A DNA stretch of 64,000 nt, taken from contig JAMKCF010000018.1 of the NCBI GenBank assembly GCA_023634235.1, positions 8,568,768 through 8,632,767 on the forward strand. The letters run 5' to 3'. Positions within the stretch are counted from its first letter, which is position 1; each line of letters starts with the position of its first letter. Under the pieces are notes generated by a model. The model was given only the letters and a program-made list of their open reading frames with translations, made no database searches and had not been told where the DNA came from. Of the stretch, positions 6,863 to 42,160 are shown in pieces. The stretch is from Pisaster brevispinus. Lineage: Eukaryota; Echinodermata; Asteroidea; Forcipulatida; Asteriidae. The translations under genes were made by a program, and so were the position numbers.

Positions 6863-7027
6863 GGCAATCTCGGTGGTCTAGTTGGTAAGACACTGCTCTA
6901 GAATTGCAAAGGTCGTGGGTTCAAATCCCACCCGAGTAATATGCCTGTGATTTTTTTCACAGAACTCGGGAAAGTACTGAGTATACAGTGCTAACACACA
7001 TCGGTGTAAGGGTAAAACCAAAATTAA
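6863..7027 (+). mobile_element. tRNA-derived SINE, full-length copy
   Basis: Pol III boxes are intact: A-box TGGTCTAGTTGG at 6874-6885 and B-box GGTTCAAATCC at 6918-6928, with a 5-bp T stem (GTGGG/CCCAC). The acceptor stem pairs only partly and a SINE body follows, shared with 6700-6776. It is therefore a SINE and not a functional tRNA gene. The 3' tail is AATTAATAA. Confidence 0.75.
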
Positions 7028-8105: not shown

Positions 8106-8334
8106 TGCGCGTGTGTAGTCCAGACGCTACTACCAGAGCCTACTTTTGGAAAAGTGTTTTATCTCTGCGTCTATAGCTATGTACACAAAGTGAGGGCTGA
8201 AGAACAACTGTTAAAACATCCATGCACTTATAATTTGAAATGATATTGTTATTGGTCCAAAACTGCCTAGAAAAATGATTAAAGTCTAGAAAGATATGAG
8301 AAACAGCATTTGTTTATGTGTGTGTGTTTTTTTT

Positions 8335-9430
8335 TTAGTGAGGTACACTCGTAGTGGGAACACCGACGTGGGCGGTCAGGGACTCATTGGTTTAAGGTGC
8401 AGGGGTTGATTTGCCCGAAATTCTACACGGCTGGGTAAAAAGTCTTTCTGGCTTTCTCTATCAAATTGTGTTTTTTCTTTCTGTGCCCGAATTTTCCCTA
8501 CTCTTTTGGCCGCGGGCAGTTCCCCTGCATACCTGGGTCGTCCGCCTATGACAAACACCGTGAGAAAATATACTGGATACAAACGAAATCGTTTTTTTTT
8601 TGTCAAGTTAAGTTCACACGGGTGTGGGACCAAACAAAATAATACTCTGAATGACGTCATATTTTTGAGTAAAAAATAGCTGAACGTGGTTGTTCGAGCG
8701 TTTTGTAGTTGGTTTTAAAAGGAGCTTTTATTAACACAAAGAACCCGCTGGAGTAAAGTCAGACACCGTAATATGAGGACTCTGCCTATTTGACATTGTC
8801 GCCACTCCCTATAGGGGAATGTTTACATAAATAACCCATCCATGGATGACAACAAAACAGCTATGCGCGTGATCCTTAAATAGGTATAGGCCTCACTACG
8901 GACTGGATACTTGCTACGGTTTCGATTAAAAGTGTATAAAACGACACCTGTGCCCAATTTCATGACTCAGCTTGCCGCCGAATTCTGCACTTAGATCACA
9001 ATTCTCTGCTTACTGTGCAGCGGCGCCAAATATCTGCCCTAGCTGTGTTAGCGAAAAATGCAAAATAAGCACGCGCACAAGAAAACATTCCCTGCTAACC
9101 TGTAAAATACGTTTGACGTAAGCGCGGAATTCCAAGCTTCCGTAACCGCCGATTCTTTGCTCACGGTAGCAGAGCCATGAAATTGGGCCCTATTGTGTTA
9201 AAAAAAATCATGTTGTTGCAACTAGAACAACCTGTTTTTCGGGGGGGGGGTGGGTGTAGTTAAGGGCCACTTTGCCAGGGCACTCAGAATATTTTCCCCA
9301 ATTGTGTAACCATAGGACAAGCATTAAATTTTTGATATTTAGTGAAACCTTATAAAGTTCACCAAAAACCAAGGAACCCACAAGAGTGCCTTGTTCTGTA
9401 CATGCATGGGCGTGTTGATCAGTGAAGCTT
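8335..9430. repeat. Diverged third copy of the ~875-bp repeat family
   Basis: Blocks shared with 33162-34043 and 34840-35711 include ACTCTGAATGACGT, CTGCCTATTTGAC, GAATG(C/T)TTACATAAATAACC and AAGTGTATAAAACGA, in the same order. This copy is older and is split by the TIR element at 8951-9190. After that insertion the similarity resumes (CATGTTGTTGCAACTAG) and runs on to GCATGGGCGTG near 9405. No coding frame is shared between copies. Confidence 0.6.
8951..9190. mobile_element. 240-bp TIR element inside the older repeat
   Basis: Ends TGCCCAATTTCATGA and CATGAAATTGGGCCC are inverted repeats. Comparison with the uninterrupted copies at 33162 and 34840 shows that this segment is an insertion after AAACGACACCTG. 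Relatives are at 7998 and 45432 (GGCCCAATTTCATAGAG). Non-autonomous DNA element of unidentified superfamily. Confidence 0.65.
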
Positions 9431-14335: not shown

Positions 14336-14900
14336 GTATGGGGCGCCGTTTATGACTTTATTACGAAACTCTTGTATACAGAAAGAAACCAATATATATA
14401 GAACGAAACCAATAGAACGAAACCAATATATATATAGACCAAAACAATTATAAAAATATATATAGGCCGGATCAAATATATAGAACAAAACAGTATTATA
14501 TAGATCAAAGCAAAAATATATTGAACTAAACCATTATAGAACGAAACAAAAAATAAATAGAACAAAACAAGTATATATATAACGAAGCGCCTCCCGCGAC
14601 GATTAGGGGCCAGTCAGTTAGACTTGAAATCAAGTCGTTAGATCATAGAGTTGTAGTGTACACTCACTGGTAATCGTCGAATTATCGATCGCTGTAAGGT
14701 TGGCGATTCGAACACTTGGACTCCTTTACCCAATATTTTGTAATTATCACACAGCCTCAAAGAAATGTCCTAATTTTGGAGGAACAAACTGCAAAGTCAT
14801 TAAATTCAGGTTAGTGGACACCATTCAATTCCAAGTGAAGCTGACAAAAAAGATTTAAAAACGGCAGCTTCACTTGCTGAGTTGCAGGGAGCTATGGAAG
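14336..14900 (+). mobile_element. tRNA-Ser-like SINE with internal GAACGAAACC(AT)n array
   Basis: Starting from CGTTTATGACTTTATTACG, a run of AACGAAACCAATATATATA-like units (14385-14585) is followed by a tRNA-Ser-like head. The head has an anticodon stem-loop GACTTGAAATCAAGTC (TGA anticodon in the loop) and a B-box-like GATTCGAAC at 14705-14713. After it come ATTATCACACAGCC and CAAGTGAAGCTG. The same blocks recur inverted at 41540-42160, which defines a mobile family about 0.6 kb long. Confidence 0.6.
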
Positions 14901-15167
14901 CAGCCAGTTTATTTTTTCAGTAGTCCCCACGGCATGCAGAAGACGTTAAGAACACAACTGCGGTGTGAAGGAATCCACCTTTCAAAACATTGTGTAACCC
15001 GTAAAAAATAATTCTAAATAAAACTTAATGCTGGGGGAACCTCATTTTAGCAAGCAAAACTCAATTAATCTAAGGATAGGGTCGAATAGAGTCGCATGGC
15101 GCAAGAAAACGCAAGAAGTGGGAAAGTGACCCAGGCTTTTTTCTATTTACTTTTTCTACATGTACAA

Positions 15168-16205
15168 GTTTTTTTAAGGTTTTGAAATTACCCTTTTTCC
15201 CACAGGTTTTCTTAACTATCCCTCTTTACAGGTTTCTAAATAACCCGTTTTTCCACAGGTTTCTTAACTTGTTTTCTCTACAGGTCTTTAAGTAACCCGT
15301 TCTTTTTTCCACAGGTTTCATAACTTTTCCTCTTTTCAGGTTTTGAAATTACCATTTTTCCCACAGGTTTTGTAACTTTTTCTCTTTTCAGGTTTTGAAA
15401 TAACCCGTTTTTCCACAGTTTTCTTAACTTTTTCTCTCTACAGGTTTCTAAATAACCCGTTCTTTTTTCCACAGGTTTTGTAACTTTTTCTCTTTTCAGG
15501 TTTTGAAATAACCCGTTTTTCCACAGGTTTCTTTAATTGTTCTCTCTACAGGTCTTTAAGTAACCCGTTCTTTTTCCACAGGTTTTGAAACTTTTTCTCT
15601 TTTCAGGTTTTGAAATAACCCGTTTTTCCACAGGCTTTCTTAACTATCCCTCTTTACAGGTTTCTAAATAACCCGTTTTTCCACAGGTTTCTTAACTTGT
15701 TCTCTCTACAGGTCTCTGAATAACCCGTTCTTTTTTCCACAGGTTTTGTAACTTTTTCTCTTTTCAGGTTTCTAAATAACCCGTTTTTCCACAGGTTTCT
15801 TAAAATGTTCTCTCCACAGGTCTTTAAGTAACCCGTTCCTTTTTTCCACAGGTTTTGTATCTTTTCCTCTTTTCAGGTTTATAAATAACCCGTTTTTCCA
15901 CAGGTTTCTTAACTTGTTCTCTCTACAGGTCTTTAAATAACCCGTCCTTTTTTCCCACAGGTTTCATAACTGTTTCTCTTTTCAGGTTTTGAAATTACCC
16001 TTTTCCCCACAGGTTTTCTTAACTATCCCTCTTTACAGGTTTCTAAATAACCCGTTTTTCCACAGGTCTCCTAACTTGTTCTCTCTACAGGTCTCTTATT
16101 AACCCGTTCTTTTTCCACAGGTTTCATAACTTTTTCTCTTTACAGGTTTTCAAATAACCCCTTTTCCCCCACAGGTTTATTTATTTGTCCCTTTTTGTTA
16201 CCCAT
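15168..16205 (+). repeat. 5' tandem array of ~55-bp TTTTCCACAGGTTT units
   Basis: Roughly 18 units of about 55 bp. Each holds two pyrimidine tracts ending in CAGGT: TAACCCGTTTTTCCACAGGT and TTCTCTCTACAGGT. Copies differ by small substitutions. The array abuts the Penelope-like coding frame and a shortened relative occurs near the 3' end, so it belongs to the retroelement. Every half-unit looks like a splice acceptor (polypyrimidine tract plus CAG|G). Confidence 0.75.
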
Positions 16206-16271: not shown

Positions 16272-17060
16272 ATGGCACTCCCTACTGACACAAAGTCCAT
16301 TTTCCGTAAGCTACGTAAGCTTAAAGAAAAGAACATTCGTTACTCGTCACATCTTGACAACTACCGCTTTTATCGTTTGTCTCGTATTCTGCCTAAAGGA
16401 CTACAGATCAAGTGTGCCCCTTCCTTTGGGGACCTTGATCTCTCCTTTCTTAAGAAATGGAATAAGACACTCACTAACACGTCTTTCCAATTGCTTACAC
16501 TGCTAGAAAGTCAATGTCAACAATACATTGATAACCAGTTACTTGAGATAACAGACACTGAATCTCAACTCAAAGAGTCATGCTCTAATCAAGAGTTTGA
16601 ACATTTACAAGATATCATTCTGTCTAACGTCAATCACCTACGGTCCACCCTATTGGACAAACAGAACAAGAAACGCATGAATGTCCAAGCTAACCATAAG
16701 AAATACATTCATAGGCGTTTCCACAGTAAGAGGCCAACTATTGTTCCTGATACTGACAGGTCACTAGTTGCACCACGTACAGTAGTTAACCTATCTGACA
16801 AAGTTCTAACCGACCCACAGGTTAAACTCCTCTCAAGGGGTCTTAAATTTTGCCCCACACCCAGAGAACCGGACCAATTGTCTTTTCAATAAGACATGGC
16901 CCAATTCAACCGTAGGTTACGCCTACGTGAATATTTTCATGTAGAGCCCTCCACAGATGACGAGTCATCTGTGGACGTCCAACCCACCCGCAACCGCTTC
17001 AGGGAGAAAAGTCGTTGGGTACCCCCTAAGAACCGAGATGTGGCTCTTGATACCTACATC
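16272..17060 (+). pseudogene. Penelope-like element, N-terminal part of the RT protein
   Basis: The frame opens at ATG 16272 and encodes a basic helical region, then the conserved block NLSDKVLT...LLSRGLKFCPTP and RRLRLREYF, typical of the region just before the RT domain. A TAA at 16890-16892 interrupts this conserved block; the same frame continues from 16893 without a shift, so the stop is a point lesion and not a gene boundary. The frame is cut at 17060 by the palindromic insertion in the codons for DTYI and is taken up again at 30475. Confidence 0.75.
17055..17060. repeat. Target-site duplication, left copy (TACATC)
   Basis: TACATC immediately precedes the first base of the palindromic element and is repeated directly after its last base (30469-30474). 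A 6-bp duplication marks insertion as one unit. Confidence 0.85.
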
Positions 17061-17084
17061 AGTAGTAAGGGAGGGGCGTTTCGT

Positions 17085-17225
17085 ACCCCAAAACCTCCCA
17101 AATCCCTCCCAAATCCCTCTTCCCTCCCTGCCCCCTCCCATTTGATCCTCCCTCCAAGACCCTCTGCCTCCCTCTCCATCCTCCCTTCATGCCACTCCCT
17201 CTTTTCCCTCCCTTCCAAGATCCTC
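17085..17225 (-). repeat. C-rich/G-rich terminal tract of the palindromic element (left)
   Basis: The plus strand is a run of CCCTCCC-type blocks, so the minus strand is GGGAGGG-rich for about 140 bp just inside the element end. Such spacing could fold as G-quadruplexes. The mirror tract is at 30304-30444. Confidence 0.6.
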
Positions 17226-20200
17226 TTGTGTAGTGTGGTTATAGCGCGCAGTATAATAGGTGTTTTCGGTTGAGTGATCACAAACGTACAAGTGTGTACA
17301 GGACAGCGTAGGCTGAATGGAAACGAGGAACAAAAGGGTCTGATGCCGTTATTGCTGAGGATCCTTTTTGGAAGGAACGTAAGGTGACCTCCCCTGTATA
17401 TAGTTACCATGAAGTGAGGGAAAGTCACGACAACGCAACGGATCAAGATGTACAAATAAATGCAAGGAACAGTCAAAAAGACAACTGTAAGATTAGGATC
17501 CCTGCGTGTGATTTACCTTCCAAAAACAGGAGTCAACAAGATCAATCTGCAGATAAAGTGACGTCACAGACAAGTCTTGACGAGTCTTGACGTAAACAAA
17601 GATATATGGTAACAACGTAAAGAGGAAAATAAGTAGTTAAGGTAGACTTCCTGGTACACTTTGACCTTTCCCTCAGAGAACAATGAAAGGTCAAACTGTA
17701 CCAGAAATAGGGTGAAAATAGGGAACACTTTGACCTTCCTTGAGAGAGGTCAAAATGTACCAGAAATAGGAGAGGAATATGAAATTACATGCTGTGGTGC
17801 AATGCCTGTGTGTACGTTGGTAGCGGTGCTGGCAGGGATAATCCCCGAACAAAAGGGGCATGTGGGACGGGTTAGGGAGAGGGAGTTAATCTTATTGATC
17901 TATAAAGAGGGGGCAGTGTGTTGGTAGGACCGGTGAGTGCTGGTATAGTGGTAGGGAATATCCTCTGACAAAGAGGGCGTGTGAGAATGACGTTGCAGTT
18001 TTACTGACTAGTTGAAGGAAATAAATCCTATTGATCCGTTATAGATGACGTTGCAGTATTATTAGTTAGGGTTATACATTGTATAAATTCCACCCGCATA
18101 GCCCTTTGATTTACAAATATTATCGTTAAATTATCATAACATCATAACTTTGGTCAGTTGTACGGTCATCATGTCTGCAGGAAAACATTATCGTTCGATA
18201 GCATCTTCGAGGGTTGAGCCAACGTGTAGCGGGTTGCGTTATACGCATCAAGAAAACCAGAAAGAGGACAGTCTTCCACGATAAGTTCATTTATTGACAC
18301 GATTAACCGAAAAACAGTTGGGGAGTTAACGTTTAATCTGTTAAAAGAATACGACGACCCAGAAGTCTGTCAAAAGTCATGGAAAAGGCTTGTTTTAGCA
18401 CTTGGTTCTTCAAATGCTGACATATACACACATCAAATAAACCATATGTATAATCCTTGGTCTATATGCTTTAACGCTTTAGTGCATCGGAGCTTCGTAA
18501 ACGTCTCAGTATACAGGACTAAGTTTATTTTCCGTACATCGGGGGTACCCAATCCACTGGCTAGGCAATGCAATAGGAGTGCAACGCAGATCATAAACAT
18601 GAGGGTGCGTTAGGGGTTTTGTTCGATACACGTCCAACATGACGTTAGTTATTGGTTAATTTTACTGTGAATATTGAGTACTTACTCATTCGATGGACAT
18701 TTGGCGCTGTATGTAAGTCAGAGCGTTTTACGCATGGTCCATGGTAATATTAACTGTTCTCCCAAAACATATTGAAGAAGGTAAATCATCATAATTTGTC
18801 CAACAAATTGGAAGCTCTTTAGGCTACATGTATGTCTACACACATAGGCATACAGTTACCTTGACAAAAAAGTAATACAACCCAATGAACACAATTTGTT
18901 TGTCCTTAAAACATCATTGTAGCGTGCACATAACAAGGAGGCAGGTTCAATACCCTAGGTTTAATGAACTATCGATCGATGCCTCCCCTTTCCGTGAGAG
19001 TTTTGACTAAAGAGTATGAGTGACCCCTTACAAATCACTCAGATAACACATTTGCAAGTGTTTTTTTTTTGTATTTCTAAAAGTTGATGTACATCATGCA
19101 CAATACACGTTAATAAAGAATAAAAAACGATCCCTCCTAGAAATATGTGTTTTTACACGGCAAGGGTTTATTCAATTCGATTCTTTTGAATCGAATATTT
19201 AGACGAAGTGAAATCTTTAAGGTTTCATTCCAAGTTTGTTAAGATAAAAACACTCATCACACACTAACATCGTAGTATACCATTCATTACATCAAACTGC
19301 TTTATTACGACATACCAATGGAAAAACAAGAACATCCCCGCGTTCATTATATAAACACGAACTTAACCCGTGCAAACTTTTAACAATTTAGATTGTTTGT
19401 TTTCCACAAGTTATCGCAAATAGTCTTAACTGTGTACTAAGTCCATCTCAAGACTCGTCTAGTTTGTACATCATTACGATTAACATGAACATAAACTCAC
19501 CGAAATCAGATGACATGCATGACAATCACACGCTTTTGTATTTAATGTTTATTGACGGTATCATAGTATGCTCCTTTATCTCTTTTAAGCCTCTTTCTCG
19601 ATACTTCTTGTCTTCTTAACCAAGTTGTAACAATATGCTTGTTTTCGAAATGAAAATACATTCGAGCATTGAACCATGATTTATACACGCACACAAACTA
19701 TTTAGTTTTCACAAACCTTTACCAGCAACGTGGGACCTTAAAACAAATTAACCATTGCGTCATCATCAAGAGCCCCCTTTTGTCCTTTAAACAAGAAAGA
19801 TACTATGTTGTACACAAACAAGACAAGAGTTTCCAATGTTGGATTGAACCGGCTGTTAAAGTTTATACGAAAACGACTTGTTTTCACTAAATGCAATAGG
19901 CCCCCTTCTTTCTCAGACAAAATTGACTCCGCCTTCGTATTGAGAGACCAAGTCTGGCCGAGTTAATTAATTTAAACGCTGTTTTACACAAAAACCAGAT
20001 ACATAATTGAGTTGGATCTCTGTTTGATGAATGTTGAGACTTCTATGTTTGTGCGTATTAAAGTTTGAGAACAATTTGGTAATAGGTGTCCGGGGTAATA
20101 TTCAAACAGGTTCTTTGGGCACCACATACAATCACGTTAAACGGCACGTCAATAGAACAACAACAAATAAATACAAAGTCAGATCTTGCAAACAATTGTT

Positions 20201-21780
20201 TTAAGTAATAAAACAACCCAAAAGTACAATTAATGAATATCAAAACACATAAATAACAATTTACAAACAAACATATTGATATTAGGGAGCCACAGAGTGA
20301 TTGTGCGTTCACTCTAACTGCCCCCCTTGTCACCACCTTCCTTGTTCATCCCTTGCCTTTTCTGTGCGCTTTAATCTCTTTTCACTTGACTGCTTCTGTC
20401 ACACCACACCTGACTATGTGTGTGTTGTATTGTCATTAGGCCTTCGAGCTAAGGTCAAAACGTCTGGACACTAACTATTTTTTACAAAAATTAAATGATA
20501 AAACGAGAAATTGGAGAGTAAAGGGGAGAAAATGAACAAACACAGCAATTCAATAATGATCAGTGACGTAATGAAGAATCACAATTATTGTCCCGCGCCG
20601 TAGTTTCTGTATAAATGGGACTACATCGTTGCAATACCAAGTGCAGACACTTGGAAACCTCTCAAAAACATAGTCGTTAAAAAAAAAAAAAAAAAAAAAA
20701 AAAAACCATTTAAAAAACACTTTAAAAAGTAAAAAATACAAATTTAAACATAAAATAAACGACTGACAACCTAACTTTTAACATTATGTGAACGATATAC
20801 AAGAACAAAGAAAACGAGCGAAATAGGAAATTACAAAATGTAATAGACTACTACTAGTATTAGTAAGGAAAGCACGCTTTAAAGGAAACTTAATGAACAT
20901 TAATCCTGGTTTATTTCTAAGCTGTGAACTGCTGCACCGTGCATGTCAATAAATAAAAAAACTTAACACTTTAAAACTAAACGTAAACATTTTAAACTAA
21001 AATTCTAAAAAGTTAACAATAAAAAAAATAAATAAATAAATAAATAAATAAAATAAATAAGTAAAATAAATAAAAACCACAAAAAAACCCAAAAACATAA
21101 ACAATTGAAAGCAATAAAAATTACTAATCCACAAGTAAGATGAGGGTTACTCACTAACCTTAAAACCGAAACTGATGTCCTTGCTCTATGGTTTAACTAA
21201 TACAAAACACAATTAAGGAAATGACAACCAACACAAAAACAACATATAAACATAAATGAGTAGGGGCCTACATAAGATCACGTTTGCAACTTACACATAC
21301 TTTACATTAAAGTTATAATAGTAGACAAGCTTGCGTGTTAAAATTTGAAAAGTAACTCTTTAAAAATGTAAAAATACATAATAATGAAGAAAAAAAATAA
21401 TAAAAAAATAACGAAATCAATCAATCAATCAATCGATCAATAAATTTTGTATAAATAAATCAATAATCAACTAAATAAATAAATATAAAAATAGATGGGA
21501 AAATGAGTTCTTCGATCAAAACAAACGAATAATAGTAAAAGTTTTTACGTGTGATGGTGTAATGTTATCAACTTTGTTATTGATTGTATATGACGTAATA
21601 CAACAAACCTAGCATATTTTTTTTAATATTGCGTCACACCTCTGCTTTCGGTGTATTTTTTCATATCCAAACAACAGAAAATGCTGTTGTATAGATCCAG
21701 AGTTTGTATGTGTTTAATATTTGTAGCTAATGTGTGTAAACTTAAAATTGATTGTGTGGTAATTTTTTTTTTATTTACAG

Positions 21781-21894
21781 GTAATTTTACGATTTTTTTG
21801 TTCCTGTGACGAATGTCATGAACTATTTTCGAGACGTAAAAATCGTAACCACCATCTAGCCCACAATACTGATATCAAACAACAACAGTGGTGA
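21781..21894 (+). CDS. C2H2 zinc-finger exon remnant, left arm
   Basis: After a good 3' splice site (TTTATTTACAG at 21770-21780) the frame reads FFCSCDECHELFSRR...HHLAH and stops at TGA 21892-21894. The C-x2-C, central F and paired histidines match a single C2H2 finger. The mirror copy is at 25636-25749. It sits about 180 bp upstream of the domain at 22064, so the two may be parts of one decayed gene. No start codon is evident. Confidence 0.4.
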   Translation, partial: VILRFFCSCDECHELFSRRKNRNHHLAHNTDIKQQQW

Positions 21895-22063
21895 ATGCGG
21901 GAAATTGTTTGCTCAAATCGACATTAAGCCTATGCAGACATATGCAAAGTCAGCATGTGCCTCAATTTGGCCACGGGACTCCAAACTTACACCAAAGAAC
22001 CAAAATATCTTCGGTGGTGATGTTAGAAACCTATATTACGTCACGAAGGTGAATAAAGTTTAA

Positions 22064-22363
22064 GTGCAGAAATTCAACACGAAAGGAACTGACTACACGG
22101 TGAAAGTCAAAGATAACTTGGATATTCACGATCCGTCAGACATCTTGGAAACTTTACACATTGTGTTTGAGAGTCTTTTAGACACACTGACCACTGACCC
22201 TATGCCTAAAGATCCCGTCCGCACTCCGCATAGTGTAATACTAAACTGTTCAGAGTTAAATTACTCCATACAATACATTCTTTGTCAAGGATCATTTGAC
22301 AGATGGGCGTTTTTTTTTTTTTTTTTAGCCAAGTGCAACAACCCTATTACCGATTCTCAATAA
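22064..22363 (+). pseudogene. Decayed domain of a Polinton/PolB-associated type (tentative), left arm
   Basis: From 22070 the frame reads FNTKGTDYTVKVKDNLDIHD, then a helix DILETLHIVFESLLDTL, then KDPVRTPHSVILNCSEL. From memory, this pattern (lh.vFe.ll..l..D.VR..l....L..pI) resembles a short domain found near zinc fingers and type-B DNA polymerases in large invertebrate DNA transposons; this needs a profile search. The nominal start is GTG, so the true start is unknown. A T tract at 22310-22327 shifts the frame; in the mirror copy (25110-25466) the frame continues past it. Confidence 0.4.
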
Positions 22364-23272
22364 ATGACAGTTTGGAAATCAATTTGACCCGCACATTGCT
22401 TTGCCTATGGGGTAAATAATCGTCTGAAACGTTACATTTTGGGAGGTTTTTGAAAGAATGCACAATTCAAATTAAAACAAAGATGACTTATGTTGCTCCC
22501 GTGCTATCGTTACTGCCAAAGCGAATGTTGATCAACACAAACGCTGGGACTAGATAAGACAAGATTATCTACTCCAAAAGGTTCTAGCCTAAAAATTACA
22601 CCAACAAGCGAAAATACCAATAAAATAGTGTGGAATTGACGAACTTAGGGAGTTTTAATATGTTTTACCTGGTTAACAACTTCTTACGGCATCAACAGAT
22701 CATTTAATTCCATCATATTTCGTAGTCCAGCGGCTGAACATTAAACTTGTCTGACAGGTACTTTTACCATGGACATTATGACGTCACAAGTATGCCCACC
22801 TTCTTTGACAGGGGGTTGCAATTATCATTCGCTCGTGCATTTGTTTTAAATCATCTGTAGCGTGTACTAAATAATATTGTTAAAATAAAATGTATTCATG
22901 TAAGTTCAGCAGCTGAACATTGTGGATTCTGAAGCTGTTAAAAAAAAGATTTGGATAAACTGTTTATTAATACTTGTACACAAATAAAATACACACTAAC
23001 GCTCAGAGAGTTAAATTTGAACTATTTCAACTAAAATAAAATACAAAAAACCAGTGGGGCCTAATTCCAAATGTCTTTTCATTTCAAAGTTCTTTACATA
23101 AACTATATAAGCCCCTGAAACAACTACATGGCATAATGAAGTCATAATTTGTAATACTATTGAGTAATTGGTAGACACAAAATCAGGATCCTAATTTGCA
23201 AAAAGTTGTGAAAATTTATTCCAATCGCCCGCTGGAAACTCCCCCTTCATTTTTACGAAAAAATCTTGTCAG

Positions 23273-23345
23273 GATCCTAATTTGCATTAGGATCCTAATT
23301 TGCATATAGTATCAGTATTTAACGCCGAGTATTTTTGGTAAGCGT
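23273..23345 (+). promoter_or_regulatory. Histone H2B promoter with two octamers, left arm
   Basis: Two ATTTGCAT octamers (about 23280-23287 and 23298-23305) lie 76-101 bp upstream of the H2B ATG. The octamer is the hallmark of metazoan H2B promoters. They are embedded in direct repeats of AGGATCCTAATTTGCA; a further repeat is near 23188-23204. A TATTTAA string (about 23317) could serve as a TATA element. The same block is mirrored at 24183-24255. Confidence 0.65.
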
Positions 23346-23380
23346 CATTCTGCAAATTTTGCGAACAACCGAATACAATC

Positions 23381-23734
23381 ATGCCACCAAAGCCAAGTGG
23401 AAAGGGACAGAAGAAGGCCGATAAGGCTAAGGAAGCACCGCACGGCGGCAACAAGAAAAGGCGTAGAAAGAGAAAGGATCTACATCTACAGGATGATGAA
23501 ACCACCCTGACACAGGCATCTCCAGCCGTGCCATAAGCATCATGAACAGCTTCGTCAAGAACATTTTCGAGCGTTTTGCTGCTGAGGCTTCCCGCCTGGC
23601 CCAACAAGAACCCCCCCCCCCCCATAACCAGCCGTGAAGTCCAGACCGCTGTCTGTCTCCTGCCCGGTGAGCTGGCCAAGCACGTTGTCAGCGAGGGAAC
23701 CAATGCTGTTACCAACTACACCACCTCCAAATAG
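23381..23734 (+). pseudogene. Histone H2B pseudogene at the palindrome hub
   Basis: The ATG at 23381 starts MPPKPSGKGQKKADKAKE and KKRRRKRK, the H2B tail. After frame changes the histone fold follows: [57 protein letters not shown] and TNYTTSK with stop TAG at 23732. Lesions seen: a deletion removing the ESYG codons, a ~5-base deletion before HPDTG, a poly-C expansion (23609-23622) in the loop before ITSRE, and loss of one Leu codon before PGEL. Intact H2B is about 122-125 residues. A promoter and 3' stem-loop flank it, so a whole gene was captured, not a processed mRNA. Function in chromatin is lost. Confidence 0.9.
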
Positions 23735-23764
23735 ACGGTGTATTTGTACGCGTCAAAACCAACC

Positions 23765-23780
23765 GGCTCTTTTCAGAGCC
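23765..23780 (+). terminator. Canonical histone mRNA 3' stem-loop
   Basis: GGCTCTTTTCAGAGCC is the textbook replication-dependent histone 3' processing hairpin (6-bp stem, TTTC loop), followed by CCCACC. It lies 31 bp after the H2B stop. A purine-rich GCAAAGGA near 23789 fits the histone downstream element. It proves that a cell-cycle histone gene was the source. Confidence 0.9.
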
Positions 23781-23960
23781 CCCACCTGCAAAGGACTCAA
23801 CAAACACACAAATGAAATCACCAAAGAGAGATATTTGGATGTATTACAATCTCAGAGGGCAGGGGTTGGAACTAACCGTGGGTTTAGAATGAGGAATGGT
23901 GAAATGTATACATATCAACAAACCAAAACTGGTTTCACATACCTTTTAATACCCCAAACG

Positions 23961-24094
23961 AAAAGTTGGGGTTGATGGTATAAGTACAACAACTTTTATC
24001 GCTGTTATACACAATTAATAATATATCAGTGCCAGGTAAATAATATTTCTACAGGTCAATATGTGTTGTACTTATACCATCAACCCCAACTTTT
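23961..24094. repeat. 134-bp hairpin at the centre of the palindrome
   Basis: A perfect 31-bp inverted repeat (AAAAGTTGGGGTTGATGG... at 23961-23991 and its inverse at 24064-24094) encloses a 72-bp loop. One side abuts the truncated H2B of the right arm. It may be a small TIR element or the fold point where the palindrome formed. Confidence 0.75.
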
Positions 24095-24146
24095 CCTTAG
24101 CCTTACCGGCCTTCTTCTGTCCCTTTCCACTTGGCTTTGGTGGCAT
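24072..24146 (-). pseudogene. Truncated H2B 5' end, right arm
   Basis: On the minus strand an ATG at 24146 gives MPPKPSGKGQKKAGKAKE and then runs into the central hairpin, stopping at TAA 24072-24074. Codon 14 is GGT (Gly), the usual H2B residue, while the left arm has GAT (Asp). The right arm thus keeps the ancestral base although it lacks the rest of the gene. Confidence 0.8.
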
Positions 24147-24182
24147 GATTGTATTCGGTTGTTCGCAAAATTTGCAGAATGA

Positions 24183-24255
24183 CGCTTACCAAATATACTC
24201 GGCGTTAAATACTGATACTATATGCAAATTAGGATCCTAATGCAAATTAGGATCC
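24183..24255 (-). promoter_or_regulatory. Histone H2B promoter with two octamers, right arm
   Basis: Mirror of 23273-23345, reading leftwards. Here the downstream string is GAGTATATTTGG, a better TATA match than the left arm's GAGTATTTTTGG. It faces the left-arm promoter across the hub. Confidence 0.6.
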
Positions 24256-25109
24256 TGACAAGATTTTTTCGTAAAAATGAAGGGGGAGTTTCCAGCGGGC
24301 GATTGGAATAAATTTTCACAATTTTTTGCAAATTAGGATCCTGATTTTGTGTCTACCAATTACTCAATAGTATTGCAAATTATGACTTCATTATGCCATG
24401 TAGTTGTTTCAGGGGCTTATATAGTTTATGTAAAGAACTTTGAAATGAAAAGACATTTGGAATTAGGCCCCACTGGTTTTTTTGTATTTTATTTTAGTTG
24501 AAATAGTTCAAATTTAACTCTCTGAGGGTTAGTGTGTATTTTATTTGTGTACAAGTATTAATAAACAGTTTATCCAAATCTTTTTTTTTAACAGCTTCAG
24601 AATCCACAATGTTCAGCTGCTGAACTTACATGAATACATTTTATTTTAACAATATTATTTAGTACACGCTACAGATGATTTAAAACAAATGCACGAGCGA
24701 ATGATAATTGCAACCCCCTGTCAAAGAAGGTGGGCATACTTGTGACGTCATAATGTCCATGGTAAAAGTACCTGTCAGACAAGTTTAATGTTCAGCCGCT
24801 GGACTACGAAATATGATGGAATTAAATGATCTGTTGATGCCGTAAGAAGTTGTTAACCAGGTAAAACATATTAAAACTCCCTAAGTTCGTCAATTCCACA
24901 CTATTTTATTGGTATTTTCGCTTGTTGGTGTAATTTTTAGGCTAGAACCTTTTGGAGTAGATAATCTTGTCTTATCTAGTCCCAGCGTTTGTGTTGATCA
25001 ACATTCGCTTTGGCAGTAACGATAGCACGGGAGCAACATAAGTCATCTTTGTTTTAATTTGAATTGTGCATTCTTTCAAAAACCTCCCAAAATGTAACGT
25101 TTCAGACGA

Positions 25110-25466
25110 TTATTTACCCCATAGGCAAAGCAATGTGCGGGTCAAATTGATTTCCAAACTGTCATTTATTGAGAATCGGTAATAGGGTTGTTGCACTTGG
25201 CTAAAAAAAAAAAAAAAAAACGCCCATCTGTCAAATGATCCTTGACAAAGAATGTATTGTATGGAGTAATTTAACTCTGAACAGTTAAGTATTACACTAT
25301 GCGGAGTGCGGACGGGATCTTTAGGCATAGGGTCAGTGGTCAGTGTGTCTAAAAGACTCTCAAACACAATGTGTAAAGTTTCCAAGATGTCTGACGGATC
25401 GTGAATATCCAAGTTATCTTTGACTTTCACCGTGTAGTCAGTTCCTTTCGTGTTGAATTTCTGCAC
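25110..25466 (-). pseudogene. Decayed Polinton/PolB-associated-type domain (tentative), right arm
   Basis: Same frame as at 22064 for its first ~90 codons. Because the homopolymer is a different length, it continues with SQVQQPYYRFSINDSLEINL before stopping, which looks like the natural end of the domain. The right arm is thus the better guide to the original protein. Confidence 0.4.
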
Positions 25467-25635
25467 TTAAACTTTATTCACCTTCGTGACGTAATATAGG
25501 TTTCTAACATCACCACCGAAGATATTTTGGTTCTTTGGTGTAAGTTTGGAGTCCCGTGGCCAAATTGAGGCACATGCTGACTTTGCATATGTCTGCATAG
25601 GCTTAATGTCGATTTGAGCAAACAATTTCCCGCAT

Positions 25636-25749
25636 TCACCACTGTTGTTGTTTGATATCAGTATTGTGGGCTAGATGGTGGTTACGATTTTTACGTCTCG
25701 AAAATAGTTCATGACATTCGTCACAGGAACAAAAAAATCGTAAAATTAC
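25636..25749 (-). CDS. C2H2 zinc-finger exon remnant, right arm
   Basis: Mirror of 21781-21894 with the same CDECHELF...HHLAH finger and the same 3' splice-like TTTATTTACAG before it. Confidence 0.4.
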   Translation of the reverse strand, partial: VILRFFCSCDECHELFSRRKNRNHHLAHNTDIKQQQW

Positions 25750-28700
25750 CTGTAAATAAAAAAAAATTACCACACAATCAATTTTAAGTTTACACACATT
25801 AGCTACAAATATTAAACACATACAAACTCTGGATCTATACAACAGCATTTTCTGTTGTTTGGATATGAAAAAATACACCGAAAGCAGAGGTGTGACGCAA
25901 TATTAAAAAAAATATGCTAGGTTTGTTGTATTACGTCATATACAATCAATAACAAAGTTGATAACATTACACCATCACACGTAAAAACTTTTACTATTAT
26001 TCGTTTGTTTTGATCGAAGAACTCATTTTCCCATCTATTTTTATATTTATTTATTTAGTTGATTATTGATTTATTTATACAAAATTTATTGATCGATTGA
26101 TTGATTGATTGATTTCGTTATTTTTTATTATTTTTTTCTTCATTATTATGTATTTTTACATTTTTAAAGAGTTACTTTTCAAATTTTAACACGCAAGCTT
26201 GTCTACTATTATAACTTTAATGTAAAGTATGTGTAAGTTGCAAACGTGATCTTATGTAGGCCCCTACTCATTTATGTTTATATGTTGTTTTTGTGTTGGT
26301 TGTCATTTCCTTAATTGTGTTTTGTATTAGTTAAACCATAGAGCAAGGACATCAGTTTCGGTTTTAAGGTTAGTGAGTAACCCTCATCTTACTTGTGGAT
26401 TAGTAATTTTTATTGCTTTCAATTGTTTATGTTTTTGGGTTTTTTTTGTGGTTTTTATTTATTTTACTTATTTATTTTATTTATTTATTTATTTTTTTAT
26501 TTTTTTTATTGTTAACTTTTTAGAATTTTAGTTTAAAATGTTTACGTTTAGTTTTAAAGTGTTAAGTTTTTTTATTTATTGACATGCACGGCGCAGCAGT
26601 TCACAGCTTAGAAATAAACCAGGATTAATGTTCATTAAGTTTCCTTTAAAGCGTGCTTTCCTTACTAATACTAGTAGTAGTCTATTACATTTTGTAATTT
26701 CCTATTTCGCTCGTTTTCTTTGTTCTTGTATATCGTTCACATAATGTTAAAAGTTAGGTTGTCAGTCGTTTATTTTATGTTTAAATTTGTATTTTTTACT
26801 TTTTAAAGTGTTTTTTAAATGGTTTTTTATTTATTTTTTTTTTTTTAACGACTATGTTTTTGAGAGGTTTCCAAGTGTCTGCACTTGGTATTGCAACGAT
26901 GTAGTCCCATTTATACAGAAACTACGGCGCGGGACAATAATTGTGATTCTTCATTACGTCACTGATCATTATTGAATTGCTGTGTTTGTGCATTTTCTCC
27001 CCTTTACTCTCCAATTTCTCGTTTTATCATTTAATTTTTGTAAAAAATAGTTAGTGTCCAGACGTTTTGACCTTAGCTCGAAGGCCTAATGACAATACAA
27101 CACACACATAGTCAGGTGTGGTGTGACAGAAGCAGTCAAGTGAAAAGAGATTAAAGCGCACAGAAAAGGCAAGGGATGAACAAGGAAGGTGGTGACAAGG
27201 GGGGCAGTTAGAGTGAACGAACAATCACTCTGTGGCTCCCTAATATCAATATGTTTGTTTGTAAATTGTTATTTATGTGTTTTGATATTCATTAATTGTA
27301 CTTTTGGGTTGTTTTATTACTTAAAACAATTGTTTGCAAGATCTGACTTTGTATTTATTTGTTGTTGTTCTATTGACGTGCCGTTTAACGTGATTGTATG
27401 TGGTGCCCAAAGAACCTGTTTGAATATTACCCCGGACACCTATTACCAAATTGTTCTCAAACTTTAATACGCACAAACATAGAAGTCTCAACATTCATCA
27501 AACAGAGATCCAACTCAATTATGTATCTGGTTTTTGTGTAAAACAGCGTTTAAATTAATTAACTCGGCCAGACTTGGTCTCTCAATACGAAGGCGGAGTC
27601 AATTTTGTCTGAGAAAGAAGGGGGCCTACTGCATTTAGTGAAAACAAGTCGTTTTCGTATAAACTTTAACAGCCGGTTCAATCCAACATTGGAAACTCTT
27701 GTCTTGTTTGTGTACAACATAGTATCTTTCTTGTTTAAAGGACAAAAGGGGGCTCTTGATGATGACGCAATGGTTAATTTGTTTTAAGGTCCCACGTTGC
27801 TGGTAAAGGTTTGTGAAAACTAAATAGTTTGTGTGCGTGTATAAATCATGGTTCAATGCTCGAATGTATTTTCATTTCGAAAACAAGCATATTGTTACAA
27901 CTTGGTTAAGAAGACAAGAAGTATCGAGAAAGAGGCTTAAAAGAGATAAAGGAGCATACTATGATACCGTCAATAAACATTAAATACAAAAGCGTGTGAT
28001 TGTCATGCATGTCATCTGATTTCGGTGAGTTTATGTTCATGTTAATCGTAATGATGTACAAACTAGACGAGTCTTGAGATGGACTTAGTACACAGTTAAG
28101 ACTATTTGCGATAACTTTTGTGGAAAACAAACAATCTAAATTGTTAAAAGTTTGCACGGGTTAAGTTCGTGTTTATATAATGAACGCGGGGATGTTCTTG
28201 TTTTTCCATTGGTATGTCGTAATAAAGCAGTTTGATGTAATGAATGGTATACTACGATGTTAGTGTGTGATGAGTGTTTTTATCTTAACAAACTTGGAAT
28301 GAAACCTTAAAGATTTCACTTCGTCTAAATATTCGATTCAAAAGAATCGAATTGAATAAACCAATGCCGTGTAAAAACACATATTTGTAGGAGGGATCGT
28401 TTTTTATTCTTTATTAACGTGTATTGTGCATGATGTACATCAACTTTTAGAAATACAAAAAAAAAACCACTTGCAAATGTGTTATCTGAGTGATTTGTAA
28501 GGGGTCACTCATACTCTTTAGTCAAAACTCTCACGGAAAGGGGAGGCATCGATCGATAGTTCATTAAACCTAGGGTATTGAACCTGCCTCCTTGTTATGT
28601 GCACGCTACAATGATGTTTTAAGGACAAACAAATTGTGTTCATTGGGTTGTATTACTTTTTTGTCAAGGTAACTGTATGCCTATGTGTGTAGACATACAT

Positions 28701-30303
28701 GTAGCCTAAAGAGCTTCCAATTTGTTGGACAAATTATGATGATTTACCTTCTTCAATATGTTTTGGGAGAACAGTTAATATTACCATGGACCATGCGTAA
28801 AACGCTCTGACTTACATACAGCGCCAAATGTCCATCGAATGAGTAAGTACTCAATATTCACAGTAAAATTAACCAATAACTAACGTCATGTTGGACGTGT
28901 ATCGAACAAAACCCCTAACGCATCCTCATGTTTATGATCTGCGTTGCACTCCTATTGCATTGCCTAGCCAGTGGATTGGGTACCCCCGATGTACGGAAAA
29001 TAAACTTAGTCCTGTATACTGAGACGTTTACGAAGCTCCGATGCACTAAAGCGTTAAAGCATATAGACCAAGGATTATACATATGGTTTATTTGATGTGT
29101 GTATATGTCAGCATTTGAAGAACCAAGTGCTAAAACAAGCCTTTTCCATGACTTTTGACAGACTTCTGGGTCGTCGTATTCTTTTAACAGATTAAACGTT
29201 AACTCCCCAACTGTTTTTCGGTTAATCGTGTCGATAAATGAACTTATCGTGGAAGACTGTCCTCTTTCTGGTTTTCTTGATGCGTATAACGCAACCCGCT
29301 ACACGTTGGCTCAACCCTCGAAGATGCTATCGAACGATAATGTTTTCCTGCAGACATGATGACCGTACAACTGACCAAAGTTATGATGTTATGATAATTT
29401 AACGATAATATTTGTAAATCAAAGGGCTATGCGGGTGGAATTTATACAATGTATAACCCTAACTAATAATACTGCAACGTCATCTATAACGGATCAATAG
29501 GATTTATTTCCTTCAACTAGTCAGTAAAACTGCAACGTCATTCTCACACGCCCTCTTTGTCAGAGGATATTCCCTACCACTATACCAGCACTCACCGGTC
29601 CTACCAACACACTGCCCCCTCTTTATAGATCAATAAGATTAACTCCCTCTCCCTAACCCGTCCCACATGCCCCTTTTGTTCGGGGATTATCCCTGCCAGC
29701 ACCGCTACCAACGTACACACAGGCATTGCACCACAGCATGTAATTTCATATTCCTCTCCTATTTCTGGTACATTTTGACCTCTCTCAAGGAAGGTCAAAG
29801 TGTTCCCTATTTTCACCCTATTTCTGGTACAGTTTGACCTTTCATTGTTCTCTGAGGGAAAGGTCAAAGTGTACCAGGAAGTCTACCTTAACTACTTATT
29901 TTCCTCTTTACGTTGTAACCATATATCTTTGTTTACGTCAAGACTCGTCAAGACTTGTCTGTGACGTCACTTTATCTGCAGATTGATCTTGTTGACTCCT
30001 GTTTTTGGAAGGTAAATCACACGCAGGGATCCTAATCTTACAGTTGTCTTTTTGACTGTTCCTTGCATTTATTTGTACATCTTGATCCGTTGCGTTGTCG
30101 TGACTTTCCCTCACTTCATGGTAACTATATACAGGGGAGGTCACCTTACGTTCCTTCCAAAAAGGATCCTCAGCAATAACGGCATCAGACCCTTTTGTTC
30201 CTCGTTTCCATTCAGCCTACGCTGTCCTGTACACACTTGTACGTTTGTGATCACTCAACCGAAAACACCTATTATACTGCGCGCTATAACCACACTACAC
30301 AAG

Positions 30304-30444
30304 AGGATCTTGGAAGGGAGGGAAAAGAGGGAGTGGCATGAAGGGAGGATGGAGAGGGAGGCAGAGGGTCTTGGAGGGAGGATCAAATGGGAGGGGGGCA
30401 GGGAGGGAAGAGGGATTTGGGAGGGATTTGGGAGGTTTTGGGGT
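30304..30444 (+). repeat. G-rich terminal tract of the palindromic element (right)
   Basis: GGGAGGG-type blocks occur every 8-20 bp for about 140 bp, ending just inside the element. It differs slightly in length from the left tract, which puts adjoining frames out of register between the arms. Confidence 0.6.
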
Positions 30445-30468
30445 ACGAAACGCCCCTCCCTTACTACT

Positions 30469-30474
30469 TACATC
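30469..30474. repeat. Target-site duplication, right copy (TACATC)
   Basis: Direct repeat of 17055-17060, immediately after ...TTACTACT at the element end. Confidence 0.85.
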
Positions 30475-31980
30475 AATTCAGTCAGCTCCGAGGTTCTTAA
30501 GGTCCCTAACACCTTGGCACCAAACAACCTCCCCCAAGATGAACGTCACGCTCTAACACAGCTCCGCCAATCACCAGACATAGTGATTAAACGTGCTGAC
30601 AAGGGGTCCGCAGTTGTAGTCATGAACACACATGACTACATAGCTGAGGGCCTCAGACAACTCAGCAACACTGATCATTATATTGAATGTGACACTGACC
30701 CTACTCAATTATTTTCCAAACAAATCAGTGACACCTTGGTTAGAATGCACAATGCCAACGGTATCGACAAAGATACCTTCAACTATCTCCTTCCACAGGA
30801 CCCCCGTACAGCACGCTTCTACCTTCTACCTAAGATACACAAGCCCAACAACCCAGGCCGACCCATTGTATCTGGTAATGGTAGCCCTATAGAGTGCATT
30901 TCTGAGTTTGTAGATAGCTTTCTCAACCCCCTAGTCTCCGGCATCCCTTCCTTCATAAAGGACACCACAGACTTCCTCCATAAGCTAGAGGATGTCAAAC
31001 ATCAAATACCTGACTCTGCTTTTTTGGTTACTCTAGATGTTTCATCACTGTATACTAACATACCCCATAATGAAGGCATAAGTGCATGTGTCTCTGCCCT
31101 CAGGGGCAACAAACAATCCCGCCCCTCAGTGATACATGTCAAGGAACTCATCAGCCATATTCTCACTAAGAACAACTTTTCATTCACTGACAGGCATTTT
31201 CTACAGATACAGGGTACCGCCATGGGTACAAAAATGGCGCCCTCATATGCCAACATTTTCATGTCTGACTTAGAGGAAAAACTTCTGTCCTCTGCCCCCA
31301 GCCGCCCACTAGTTTGGTGGAGATTTATTGATGATATTTTCTCTATCTGGTGTGGTAGTCAAGACAGCTTGGTTGAGTTTATCGACCATATAAACTCATT
31401 CCACCCAACCATAAAGTTCACTACTGAATACTCTCTAACAAGTGTTAACTTTCTAGATGTAACTATAAGTAAATCCCCTAGCGGCATTGCCACGGATGTA
31501 TACAGCAAACCCACTGACACCCAACAGTACCTTCTCTCCAACAGTTGCCACCCCAGTCACTGTAAGAAGGCAATAGCTTACAGTCAAGCCTTGCGCATAA
31601 AACGTATCTGCTCCACAGATACCCTATACAAAAGGCGTTCATCGGACCTCAGGAAACACCTTGTTTCTAGAGGTCACAGCGAACGCAGGGTTCAACTTGC
31701 CATCAACAAGGCCCTCAGTATACCACGCCATACTCTTTTGGCCAACAAGGGGTCCAGAAAAGTCCCGACCAATAGAGTTGCCCTGGTCACCACCTACCAC
31801 CCTAAACTACCCAAACTCTCCTCAATCCTCAATGGTAGAATGAATATTCTCCATTCATCTAAGAGGATGCGCTCAGCAATCCCTGATAACCCCATGGTTG
31901 CTTTCCGCTGCCCTAAGAACCTGGGAGACATTCTAGTCAGGGCCAAACTCCCCCAGGTACAGGCCAAACACCACCACTAA
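30469..31980 (+). pseudogene. Penelope-like reverse transcriptase domain
   Basis: The protein resumes at 30475 (NSVSSEVLK...) and carries KRADKGSAVVVM, ARFYLLPKIHKP, motif A LDVSSLYTNIPHNEG (about 31030-31075), motif B GTAMGTKMAPSYANIFM and the catalytic FIDDIF (about 31324-31341), then NFLDVTI. These RT motifs and their wording are those of Penelope-like elements, which are related to telomerase. The open frame running in from 30052 is a chance fusion with the inserted element. The frame ends at TAA 31978, but conserved sequence continues in another frame after a C run near 31952-31956. Confidence 0.85.
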
Positions 31981-33110: not shown

Positions 33111-33161
33111 TTGGATTAACAGAATTTCGAGTTACGGTGTTTGACTACACTTTTGTTAATC

Positions 33162-34043
33162 GTGGCAAACTTGTTGATGTGGGGCCACCCCTTCTATTTT
33201 TCTGCAAACAGACTTTTCGTATAATTGTATGTTTATTTGTTGTTTAAAGGGCAGAACAAATACTAACGTAAAGAGACAAAGTGCGCCCTGAATAGTTAAC
33301 GATTTACGAACCAGTTTTTAAAATTTTTATATGGCATTTTTTACAGTGAGGTAAACTCGCACTGAGAACACCGACGTAGGTGTAGGGAGTCTTTGGTTAA
33401 GGGGCAGGGGGTTGGTTTGTCCTGCACACGTACCAGTCGAACGCCTATAGATAAACACCAAGAGAAAAATATAATGGATACAAAAGATCGTTCGTTTCAA
33501 GTTTCGTTCATGCGGGTGTGGACCAAACAAACTAATACTCTGAATGACGTAATATATTTAGATGAAAAATAAAGCTTACGTATACAAAAGTGTTGTTCAA
33601 CACCTACTCACGGGCGTTCCATTCTGCATGTGTGGCTTTTAATTTTTAGCTGAACGAGGTTGTTGGAGCGTTTTGTATTTGTTTTAAAGGAGCTTTTATT
33701 AACACAAAGAACCATGGAGGTAAAATACCTCCATGAAAGAACCCACTGGAGTAAAGTAAGAGACCGTAACTTAAGGACTCTGCCTATTTGACCTTGTCGC
33801 CACTCCTTATAAGGGAATGCTTACATAAATAACCCATCCATGGATGACAACAAAACAACTACGTTTTTGATCCTTAGGCTTTACCACAGATTGGATAATT
33901 TCTACGGTTTCGATTTGAAGTGTATAAAACGAGACCTGATTGGAAGAACATTTGGAAACAGCATGTTGTTCCAACTAGAAAAAAAATGTTTGTTTGTTTA
34001 ATTATGTTGCACTGTCGAAAAATCCACTTTTCTGGGGCACTCG
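33162..34043. repeat. ~875-bp direct repeat, copy 1
   Basis: Starts GTGGCAAACTTGTTGATGTG and ends CTTTTCTGGGGCACTCG. It is repeated with few differences at 34840-35711, and an old copy is at 8335-9430. No protein, tRNA head or terminal inverted repeat was found, so the family is unassigned. Confidence 0.85.
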
Positions 34044-34839
34044 ACGACCACAAGTAGAACAATTTGCAGCTCATTCCGTTCATAGGTTCGACAAATTTCC
34101 AGATCGTCTGAACATAGTATAACCAACTAGATAGCTTGTCTCCACAGTCAGATTGTTATAGAACACATATTACAGTGCACGTGCCCCCCATTTTTTTTCC
34201 AGTAACCCTCCCCCAATCCCAATGAAAAGAATTGCGATAGTGCTCACAAAAAGAAAAAGAAAAGGAAAAGATAAAAAAGGAAAATTCGTGTTTCGTACAA
34301 ACTAATGTAGTGAACGATCGCAAATCGGGATGGCTACCGGGCCACAGAGCATAAAAGGATGGAGGCCCCATGCAGCGTCCCCTTCCAAAGTAAAAGCATG
34401 ACCCACTACTGACAAACCCATCCCCTGCCCCCCTCCACTTAAAAGCAACGCCCCCTGTGATCCGACCAAAGGGGACTACCAGGATATACAAACCGTAAAT
34501 CAATTGACACCACAAAGACCAAAGGGCAGTTAAATTGTACCAATTTCCGACAACCAAGCAAACTAACGATCAATGCCCTGGGCAACCCGCTACCCAGCTA
34601 ACAGTTTGACGTTCCCACAACGTTGTAATGAAGTCAGACTTTGGTGTAAGTAAGTTATCAATATAACGTTGTAACAATGAAACTTTGTCGACTCCCCTAT
34701 ACGTCTTCTGAACGTTAGGACGCAATGTAACAATCACGTTGTTGGTACGTTTAAGATACGTTTCCAGTGACCTTATGACAACTTATAAACGTTACGACAA
34801 CGTTACCAGAGCGTGCTTGCTTGGTTGTTATAGAGTTAA
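34044..34839. other. Spacer between the direct repeats; AACGTT-rich segment
   Basis: No gene. At 34590-34810 the strings AACGTTGTAA/ACAACGTT recur many times in both orientations, as in simple dispersed repeats. Confidence 0.45.
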
Positions 34840-35711
34840 GTGGCAAACTTGTTGATGTGGGGCCACCCCTTCTATTTTTCTGCAAACAGACTTTTCGTAT
34901 CATTGTATGTTTTATTGTTGTTTAAAGGGCAGAACAAATACTAACGTAAAGAGACAAAGTGCGCCCTGAATAGTTTACGATTTACGAACCCGCTTTTTAA
35001 ATTTTTATGTGGCAATTTTAATAGTGAGGATAACTCGTAATGAGAACACCGACGTAGGTGTAGGGAGTCTTTGGTTAAGGGGCAGGGGGTTGGTTTGCCC
35101 TGCACACGTACCAGTCGAACGCCTATAGATAAACACCAAGAGAAAAATATAATGGATACAAAAGATCGTTCGTTTCAAGTTACGTTCATGCGGGTGTGGA
35201 CCAAACAAACTAATACTCTGAATGACGTAATATATTTAGATGAAAAATAAAGCTTACGTATACAAAAGTGTTGTTCAACACCTACTCACCGGCGTTCCAT
35301 TCTGCATGTGTGGCTTTTATTTTGTAGCTGAACGAGGTTGTTTAAGCGTTTTGTAGTTGGTTTTAAAAGGAAATTTATTAACACAAAGAACCATGGAGGT
35401 AAAATACCTCCATGAAAGATCCCACTGGAGTACGTAACATAAGGACTCTGCCTATTTGACCTTGTCGCCACTCCTTATAAGGGAATGCTTACATAAATAA
35501 CCCATCCATGGATGACAACAAAACAACTACGTTTTTGATCCTTAGGCTTTACCACAGATTGGATAATTTCTACGGTTTCGATTTGAAGTGTATAAAACGA
35601 GACCTGATTGGAAGAACATTTGGAAACAGCATGTTGTTCCAACTAGAAAAAAATTGTTTGTTTGTTTAATTATGTTGCACTGTCGAAAAAGCCACTTTTC
35701 TGGGGCACTCG
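34840..35711. repeat. ~875-bp direct repeat, copy 2
   Basis: Second copy, same orientation as 33162-34043. Its downstream flank (GAATGTTTTCC...GCATGGGCGTG, to about 35837) also matches the copy at 8335-9430, so this copy is closer to full length than copy 1. Confidence 0.85.
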
Positions 35712-41500: not shown

Positions 41501-41539
41501 TTTAATTTTGAGTATTAGTATTATTTAAGTGAAGCTGCC

Positions 41540-42160
41540 GGTTTTTTTTTCTTTCTTTTTTTCAGCTTCACTTGGAATTGAATGGTGTCAACTAGCCTCA
41601 ATTTACTGACTTTGCAGCCTGTTCCTCCAAACTTAGGACAATTCTCTGTGGCTGTGTGATTATCACAAAACATTGAAATTGGAGTCCACGTGTTCGAATC
41701 ACAAACCTTAAAGCAACCGATAATTCGACACTTATTAGTGAATGTTCACTACAACTCTATGATCTCACGACTTGATTTCAAGTCTAGCAGACTTCGCTTC
41801 GTTCTATGTATTTTAGTTTTTGTTCTATATATGTTTGGCTTTCGTTCTATATATTGCAGCCTGGCCCTTAATCGTCGTATTCGGCGCTTCGTTCAATATA
41901 TTTTGGTTTTGATCCATATAATATTGTTTCGTTCTATGTATTTGATTCGGCCTATATATATCTTTGTTTTCGGTCTATATATATTTGTTTCATTCTATAT
42001 ATTTGATTCAGTCGATATAAATTCATGTTTTCGTTCTACATATATTTGTTTCGATTTATATAATTTAGTTTCGTTTTATATATATTGGTTTCGTTCTGTT
42101 GTATCGGGTTCTTTCTGTATATAAGAGTTTCGTAATAAAGTCATAAACGACGCGCCATAC
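41540..42160 (-). mobile_element. tRNA-Ser-like SINE, inverted partner of 14336-14900
   Basis: Reading leftwards it shows the same order: GTTTATGACTTTATTACG, ATATATA/GAACGAAAC units, the anticodon-type hairpin GACTTGAAATCAAGTC, GATTCGAAC, GTGATAATCACACAGCC and AAGTGAAGCTG. Confidence 0.6.

Follow-up and report, generated by a model that had tools for sequence, protein, structure and literature searches.

A near-perfect 13.4-kb palindrome with Maverick-type ends inserted in a Penelope-like element of Pisaster brevispinus

Linear replicons with terminal-protein priming depend on their end sequence for the start of replication. Adenovirus 12 symmetric recombinants (SYREC), which derive from a replicon of this kind, are reportedly linear palindromes that carry the same viral end at each terminus and enclose cellular DNA. 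Among transposable elements, the closest described systems are the Maverick/Polinton elements and Galileo. In vertebrate Mavericks, 5′-(AGT)2//(ACT)2-3′ is the commonest terminus and is accompanied by perfect 6-bp target-site duplications (TSDs), while intact copies measure 12.7–24.6 kb and have terminal inverted repeats (TIRs) of 46–1447 bp (PMC8097293). A 6-bp TSD is also reported for Polintons (PMC10045372). On the basis of their motif, the terminal repeats of Mavericks are expected to assist jumping-back during an adenovirus-like, protein-primed replication (PMC8097293). In the case of Galileo, the copies with the longest TIRs are described as non-autonomous (PMC3573991). Here, we describe a palindromic element found in a 64,000-nucleotide stretch (hereafter, the window) of the sea star Pisaster brevispinus (assembly GCA_023634235.1, contig JAMKCF010000018.1, positions 8,568,768 to 8,632,767). 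The element has Maverick-type ends, carries pieces of a histone H2B gene and of a second gene, and interrupts the reverse transcriptase (RT) frame of a Penelope-like element. Positions are given as those of the window.

Arms, ends and insertion site of the palindrome

Self-comparison of the window revealed a single dominant inverted repeat, 17061–23434 against 30468–24093. When 17061–23434 was aligned with the reverse complement of 24093–30468, the 6382 columns showed 99.48% identity and contained 19 substitutions. A base-by-base alignment of the arms again gave 19 substitutions, together with small indels, mostly in A or T homopolymers. The substitutions were spread over the arm, numbering 1, 2, 4, 6, 0, 2, and 4 in successive 1-kb bins. 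At the two element ends, the outermost 75 bases match without interruption, and the mirror symmetry stopped at the TACATC duplications, the outer flanks (1054 bases on each side) being 26% identical in an ungapped comparison. These results bear out the near-perfect palindrome and the exact inverted outer ends proposed in the initial annotation. With the inner portion described below included, self-comparison and alignment place the left arm at 17061–23991 on the plus strand (6931 bp, starting with AGTAGT) and the right arm at 24064–30468 on the minus strand (6405 bp, ending with ACTACT). The insert is 13.4 kb long, or about 13.9 kb if a 528-bp stretch missing from the right arm is added. The outermost 200 bases of the left arm (17061–17260, plus strand) are C-rich, with 81 C and 29 G. 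Close to the outer end of the arm, at 17650–17775, short repeated GGTCAAA.. units produce secondary matches between the arms.

The TACATC copies at 17055–17060 and 30469–30474 were read directly from the sequence. By letters alone the boundary could move by one base, as the base after either TACATC is an A; only the 6-bp reading leaves both element ends as exact inverted copies. The insert divides a Penelope-like open reading frame (ORF) on the plus strand. Its 5′ part (16272–17060) has one in-frame stop, at codon 16890–16892, where the uninterrupted relative P0002 has Q. The 3′ part (30475–31977) was recognised as a reverse transcriptase by its RVT_1 domain (E 5.4e-10), and P0002 is 91% identical to it over 98% of the 501 residues. 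When the flanks were joined with a single TACATC kept, the frame read ..ALDTYI-NSVSSEV.. and aligned with P0002 without a gap for 549 residues. P0002 is listed with PF00078 and PF01541, and the host element has the feature expected of Penelope-like elements, an RT with GIY-YIG relatives, which in P0002 is uninterrupted across the site. Named relatives of the RT, among 120 of the 3698 matches, came from echinoderms, molluscs, lancelets, corals, a tick, and a newt. The flanking TACATC copies and the continuity of the RT frame once the insert is left out, both noted in the initial annotation, were therefore confirmed, and they support its view that a single unit was inserted into a Penelope-like element. 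The Penelope-like frame ends near 31980, where P0002 runs on.

The element, for which the initial annotation could name no family, has ends and a duplication length that fit Maverick/Polinton elements. It reads 5′-AGTAGT...ACTACT-3′, with AGTAGT at 17061 and ACTACT ending at 30468, and its terminal sequence is the AGTAGTAAGGGAGG end. Of the two terminal motifs that characterize Mavericks, (AGT)2//(ACT)2 and (AG)3//(CT)3, it carries the first. AGTAGT occurs 29 times in ~128,000 positions on both strands of the window, element ends included (2.3e-4), so its presence exactly at the element ends is unlikely to be due to chance. The 6-bp TSD typical of Mavericks is likewise present, as seen from TACATC and the empty-site frame. 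The inverted ends and a size within 12.7–24.6 kb are further points of agreement with the vertebrate elements as published (PMC8097293). On the other hand, the inverted repeat makes up nearly the whole element, with arms of 6.4–6.9 kb compared with TIRs of 46–1447 bp in intact vertebrate copies, and the cargo consists of H2B and P0001-related pieces with no recognised Maverick gene. Since the Maverick core genes were not recognised in any of six frames (Pfam scan of the left arm and centre, 17061–24092, at E ≤0.1 and with stops written as X), we file the element only as non-autonomous and Maverick-ended; it is not a complete Maverick.

Palindrome centre and gene fragments in the arms

The initial annotation had assigned a histone core to the palindrome. 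The last 32 bases up to 23991 (23960–23991, plus strand), which form the innermost left arm, recur inverted and perfectly matched at 24064–24095 (minus strand), where the right arm had seemed to end. Both copies of this inner stem were identified by inverted-repeat search and by folding. The longest exact inverted repeat obtained in 60 mononucleotide shuffles of the stretch was 14 bases, compared with 32 here, and the single-strand fold of 23930–24110 had a z of −8.4, with none of 200 shuffles as good. The fold and direct reading place the palindrome centre in the 72 bases between the stems (23992–24063). Because the 32-bp inner stem continues the arms past H2B, the histone stretch belongs to the arm and not to the centre, and the proposed histone core gives way to an arm-borne H2B whose right copy lacks its body. 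The Maverick-type ends and the demonstration that the histone is not the core are what is new here.

A 528-bp stretch (23435–23962, plus strand; boundaries read from the sequence) is present in the left arm and absent from the right, with GAA microhomology at its bounds. In the inward direction, the right-arm sequence is ..CTAAG-GAA-AAGTTGGGG.., equivalent to the left arm minus 23435–23962 between two GAA copies. The net difference in arm length is 526 and not 528, owing to small indels elsewhere. As far as can be read from the sequence, the original palindrome would have had ~6.93-kb arms around the 72-base centre, with two H2B copies face to face, and the body of the right-arm H2B was probably lost through a microhomology deletion.

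The left-arm H2B is a pseudogene with pieces in two frames (23381–23734, plus strand). Its 3′ piece (23546–23731) had matches at E ≤0.01 to solved H2B chains of 174 distinct sequences, with values typically near 1e-11 in the 60 shown and 3.4e-25 for one chain matched in two stretches; the 5′ part was assigned by reading and position. Upstream, at 23271–23305 (plus strand), motif reading and the tandem-repeat listing revealed two octamers ATTTGCAT within an 18-bp tandem repeat, the octamer being a motif of H2B promoters. A histone 3′ stem-loop at 23760–23804 (plus strand), in which all stem pairs are standard, scored 22.9 bits (E 0.014), below the Rfam gathering score of 34. The H2B start, the two octamers, and the first codons are found in both arms, and the remaining H2B in the left arm only; the remnant 5′ end in the right arm lies at 24093–24146 (minus strand), its end placed via the arm alignment. 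Core histones were the only family in the six-frame scan, as a weak match below the cut-off (E 0.017), and the 5′ and 3′ pieces sent singly to Pfam gave no histone match. A frame near the centre (23793–23972) had no relative in viral contigs. Weak matches to small nucleolar RNAs and microRNAs were set aside.

The second piece of cargo (18171–18472, plus strand) is related to the protein P0001, with a stop and a frame change relative to it; the right-arm copy was placed at 29056–29357 (minus strand) via the arm alignment. The frame from 18171 resembles P0001, and the next frame is 65% identical to it over 57 residues. P0001 was the sole match among 7 candidates in the protein search (E 1.2e-18). 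Weak likeness to the CRADD death domain was observed at E 0.057 for the window frame, E 0.0012 over 33 residues for P0001, and E 0.0023 for a two-row profile. In Pfam, P0001 itself gave DDE_Tnp_1_4 (E 0.074) slightly ahead of Death (E 0.13), both far below the cut-offs. The piece is thus possibly a fragment of a death-domain gene. The predicted fold of P0001, with a pLDDT of 53.5, was too poor for use, and none of the 13 stretches in viral contigs that matched the P0001 pattern was confirmed.

Both the H2B and the P0001-related pieces look host-derived. This cargo was probably broken before the element arrived, because both pieces are frame-broken while the split RT aligns open over 549 residues (one in-frame stop, at 16890–16892, lies just upstream), and because the listed differences between the arms include none at the stop of the P0001-related frame. 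The split RT was at this site no later than the insertion itself. The arm also contains an open 99-aa frame at 22064–22363, preceded in the same frame by a 67-aa stretch (21860–22063) with one stop between them. In a large protein collection, 170 candidates were retrieved for this frame when stops were entered as X and full-length candidates were admitted, none of them at E ≤10; in viral contigs, six stretches matched its pattern and none was confirmed.

Origin of the palindrome

We propose, with about even confidence, that a linear Maverick-type replicon with host-like DNA was copied back on itself in protein-primed replication, and that a Maverick integrase supplied in trans then inserted the product. 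A Maverick end would at the outset have been joined to host-like DNA holding the H2B and P0001-related pieces. A 3′ end near 24027 would then have turned back on its own strand and served as primer for synthesis up to the AGTAGT terminus, which would give the same end twice. Because both ends would carry replication and integration signals, the product may have been replicated and inserted as one unit, with TACATC being made at insertion. The loss of 528 bp of H2B from the right arm would have preceded or followed insertion, and the arms would since have diverged by about 0.3% substitutions. In general, a 3′ end that folds back where a short inverted match allows it and extends along its own strand yields a palindrome with the same end twice; this could be replicated anew and, in the case of a Maverick, become available to the integrase. 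The points counted in favour of this origin are the Maverick end motif, the short centre with a perfect stem, the identical ends, the size, the 6-bp duplication, the mirror symmetry that stops at the TSDs, and the cargo that was probably broken on arrival.

Several observations weigh against this proposal. The formation of the palindrome before insertion is a step that we infer, and the end motif is the sole basis for the protein-primed step. The (AGT)2//(ACT)2 ends have been described for vertebrate elements, and the present host is a sea star. None of the Maverick core families (protein-primed polymerase B, integrase, capsid proteins, ATPase, and protease) was recognised by the six-frame scan at E ≤0.1. 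The frame at 22064–22363, considered as a polymerase remnant, was dropped, since neither Pfam nor PHROGs nor the searches described above supplied a relative. Viral contigs were scanned five times; no relative came to light, and a single hit, to an 18-mer of the terminus in contig L001, was attributed to chance, as its 13.8-kb stretch had no wider similarity to the window, and a longer terminal pattern had no match in these contigs.

The most prominent alternative is that the palindrome was formed in place. A short-TIR, Maverick-ended non-autonomous element would have been inserted first, and an internal break would have been repaired with the opposite arm as template, by way of the TIR, and closed by end joining. 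We regard this as a serious rival, albeit a less likely one. It would account for the TSD, the ends, and the short odd centre as well, and a single copy fits formation in place and folding back before insertion alike. The GAA microhomology at the 528-bp loss suggests that end joining has acted on this element. TIR growth through inverted duplication of inner sequence is reported for Galileo, in which 441 bp were duplicated and inverted, but repair in place would require a copy tract of nearly 7 kb, compared with Galileo TIRs of ~1.3 kb at most (PMC3573991). In addition, the six-frame scan recognised nothing left over from a distinct second half. Neither of these two points is decisive.

Galileo is also relevant to a further possibility, which we consider improbable, namely that the locus is an element of foldback type, from a different superfamily that makes 6-bp duplications, in which AGTAGT is coincidental. 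The six-frame scan found neither a Maverick integrase nor a credible transposase to decide the matter. Galileo, a foldback-like element of the P superfamily, resembles the present element in being non-autonomous, in consisting mostly of inverted repeat, and in the mode of TIR growth; it differs in its TIRs of up to ~1.3 kb and its 7-bp TSDs (PMC3573991). The 6-bp motif and the 6-bp TSD found here both fit Mavericks. Moreover, the features of foldback/Galileo elements (long internally repetitive TIRs, a 7-bp TSD, and a P-superfamily transposase) do not match the present element, in which tandem arrays are short, with units of ≤21 bp (15 entries in the array listing), the TSD is 6 bp, and no transposase was found. 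Finally, a fold-back chimeric read or mis-joined haplotypes might have produced the palindrome during sequencing or assembly, and fold-back chimeras are known from long-read and amplified libraries. Such an artefact is very unlikely, because 19 substitutions, several indels, and the 528-bp deletion distinguish the arms, and because the mirror respects the element ends, stopping on both sides at the 6-bp duplication and the Maverick motif, with the two halves of one RT gene as flanks.

If the replicon was indeed folded back before insertion, the locus may be regarded, more tentatively, as a germline-inserted palindromic hybrid replicon, that is, a folded-back, protein-primed Maverick with captured host genes and two identical viral ends, integrated as one unit. 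It would then represent a route for spreading host DNA mirror-wise and a natural counterpart of palindromic adenovirus–cell hybrids. The resemblance to SYREC, as reported for it, lies in the palindromic structure, the same viral end present twice, the cellular DNA inside, and the protein-primed replicon. Unlike SYREC, which was reportedly seen in virus preparations, the present element is integrated with a TSD, and no adenoviral sequence is claimed for it. Among the papers matched in open-literature searches, no title or abstract opening described a palindromic or H2B-carrying Polinton/Maverick element. A Maverick-ended palindrome is the expected residue of fold-back errors in protein-primed replication, and such residues could serve as a fossil test of this mechanism. 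If similar palindromes recur in the genome, they would provide a route for the capture of host genes as well as long inverted repeats that destabilise chromosomes. Cloning and assembly of long inverted repeats are difficult, so such elements may have escaped notice before long reads.

Other features of the window

The remaining features lie outside the element. A single ORF at 58650–62021 (plus strand) encodes 1123 aa with NACHT and leucine-rich repeats, as in an NLR-type protein. A 0.9-kb direct duplication (33155–34043 and 34835–35711) is 95% identical, and partial, more distant relatives of it occur within 8329–9414. Two repeats in opposite orientation, 14336–16196 and 40691–42160, are about 74–76% alike, and each lies near a separate tandem array, one of which is directly upstream of the Penelope-like ORF. 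A tRNA-Ser (AGA) gene is located at 6867–6939 between two copies of a 62–65 bp repeat.

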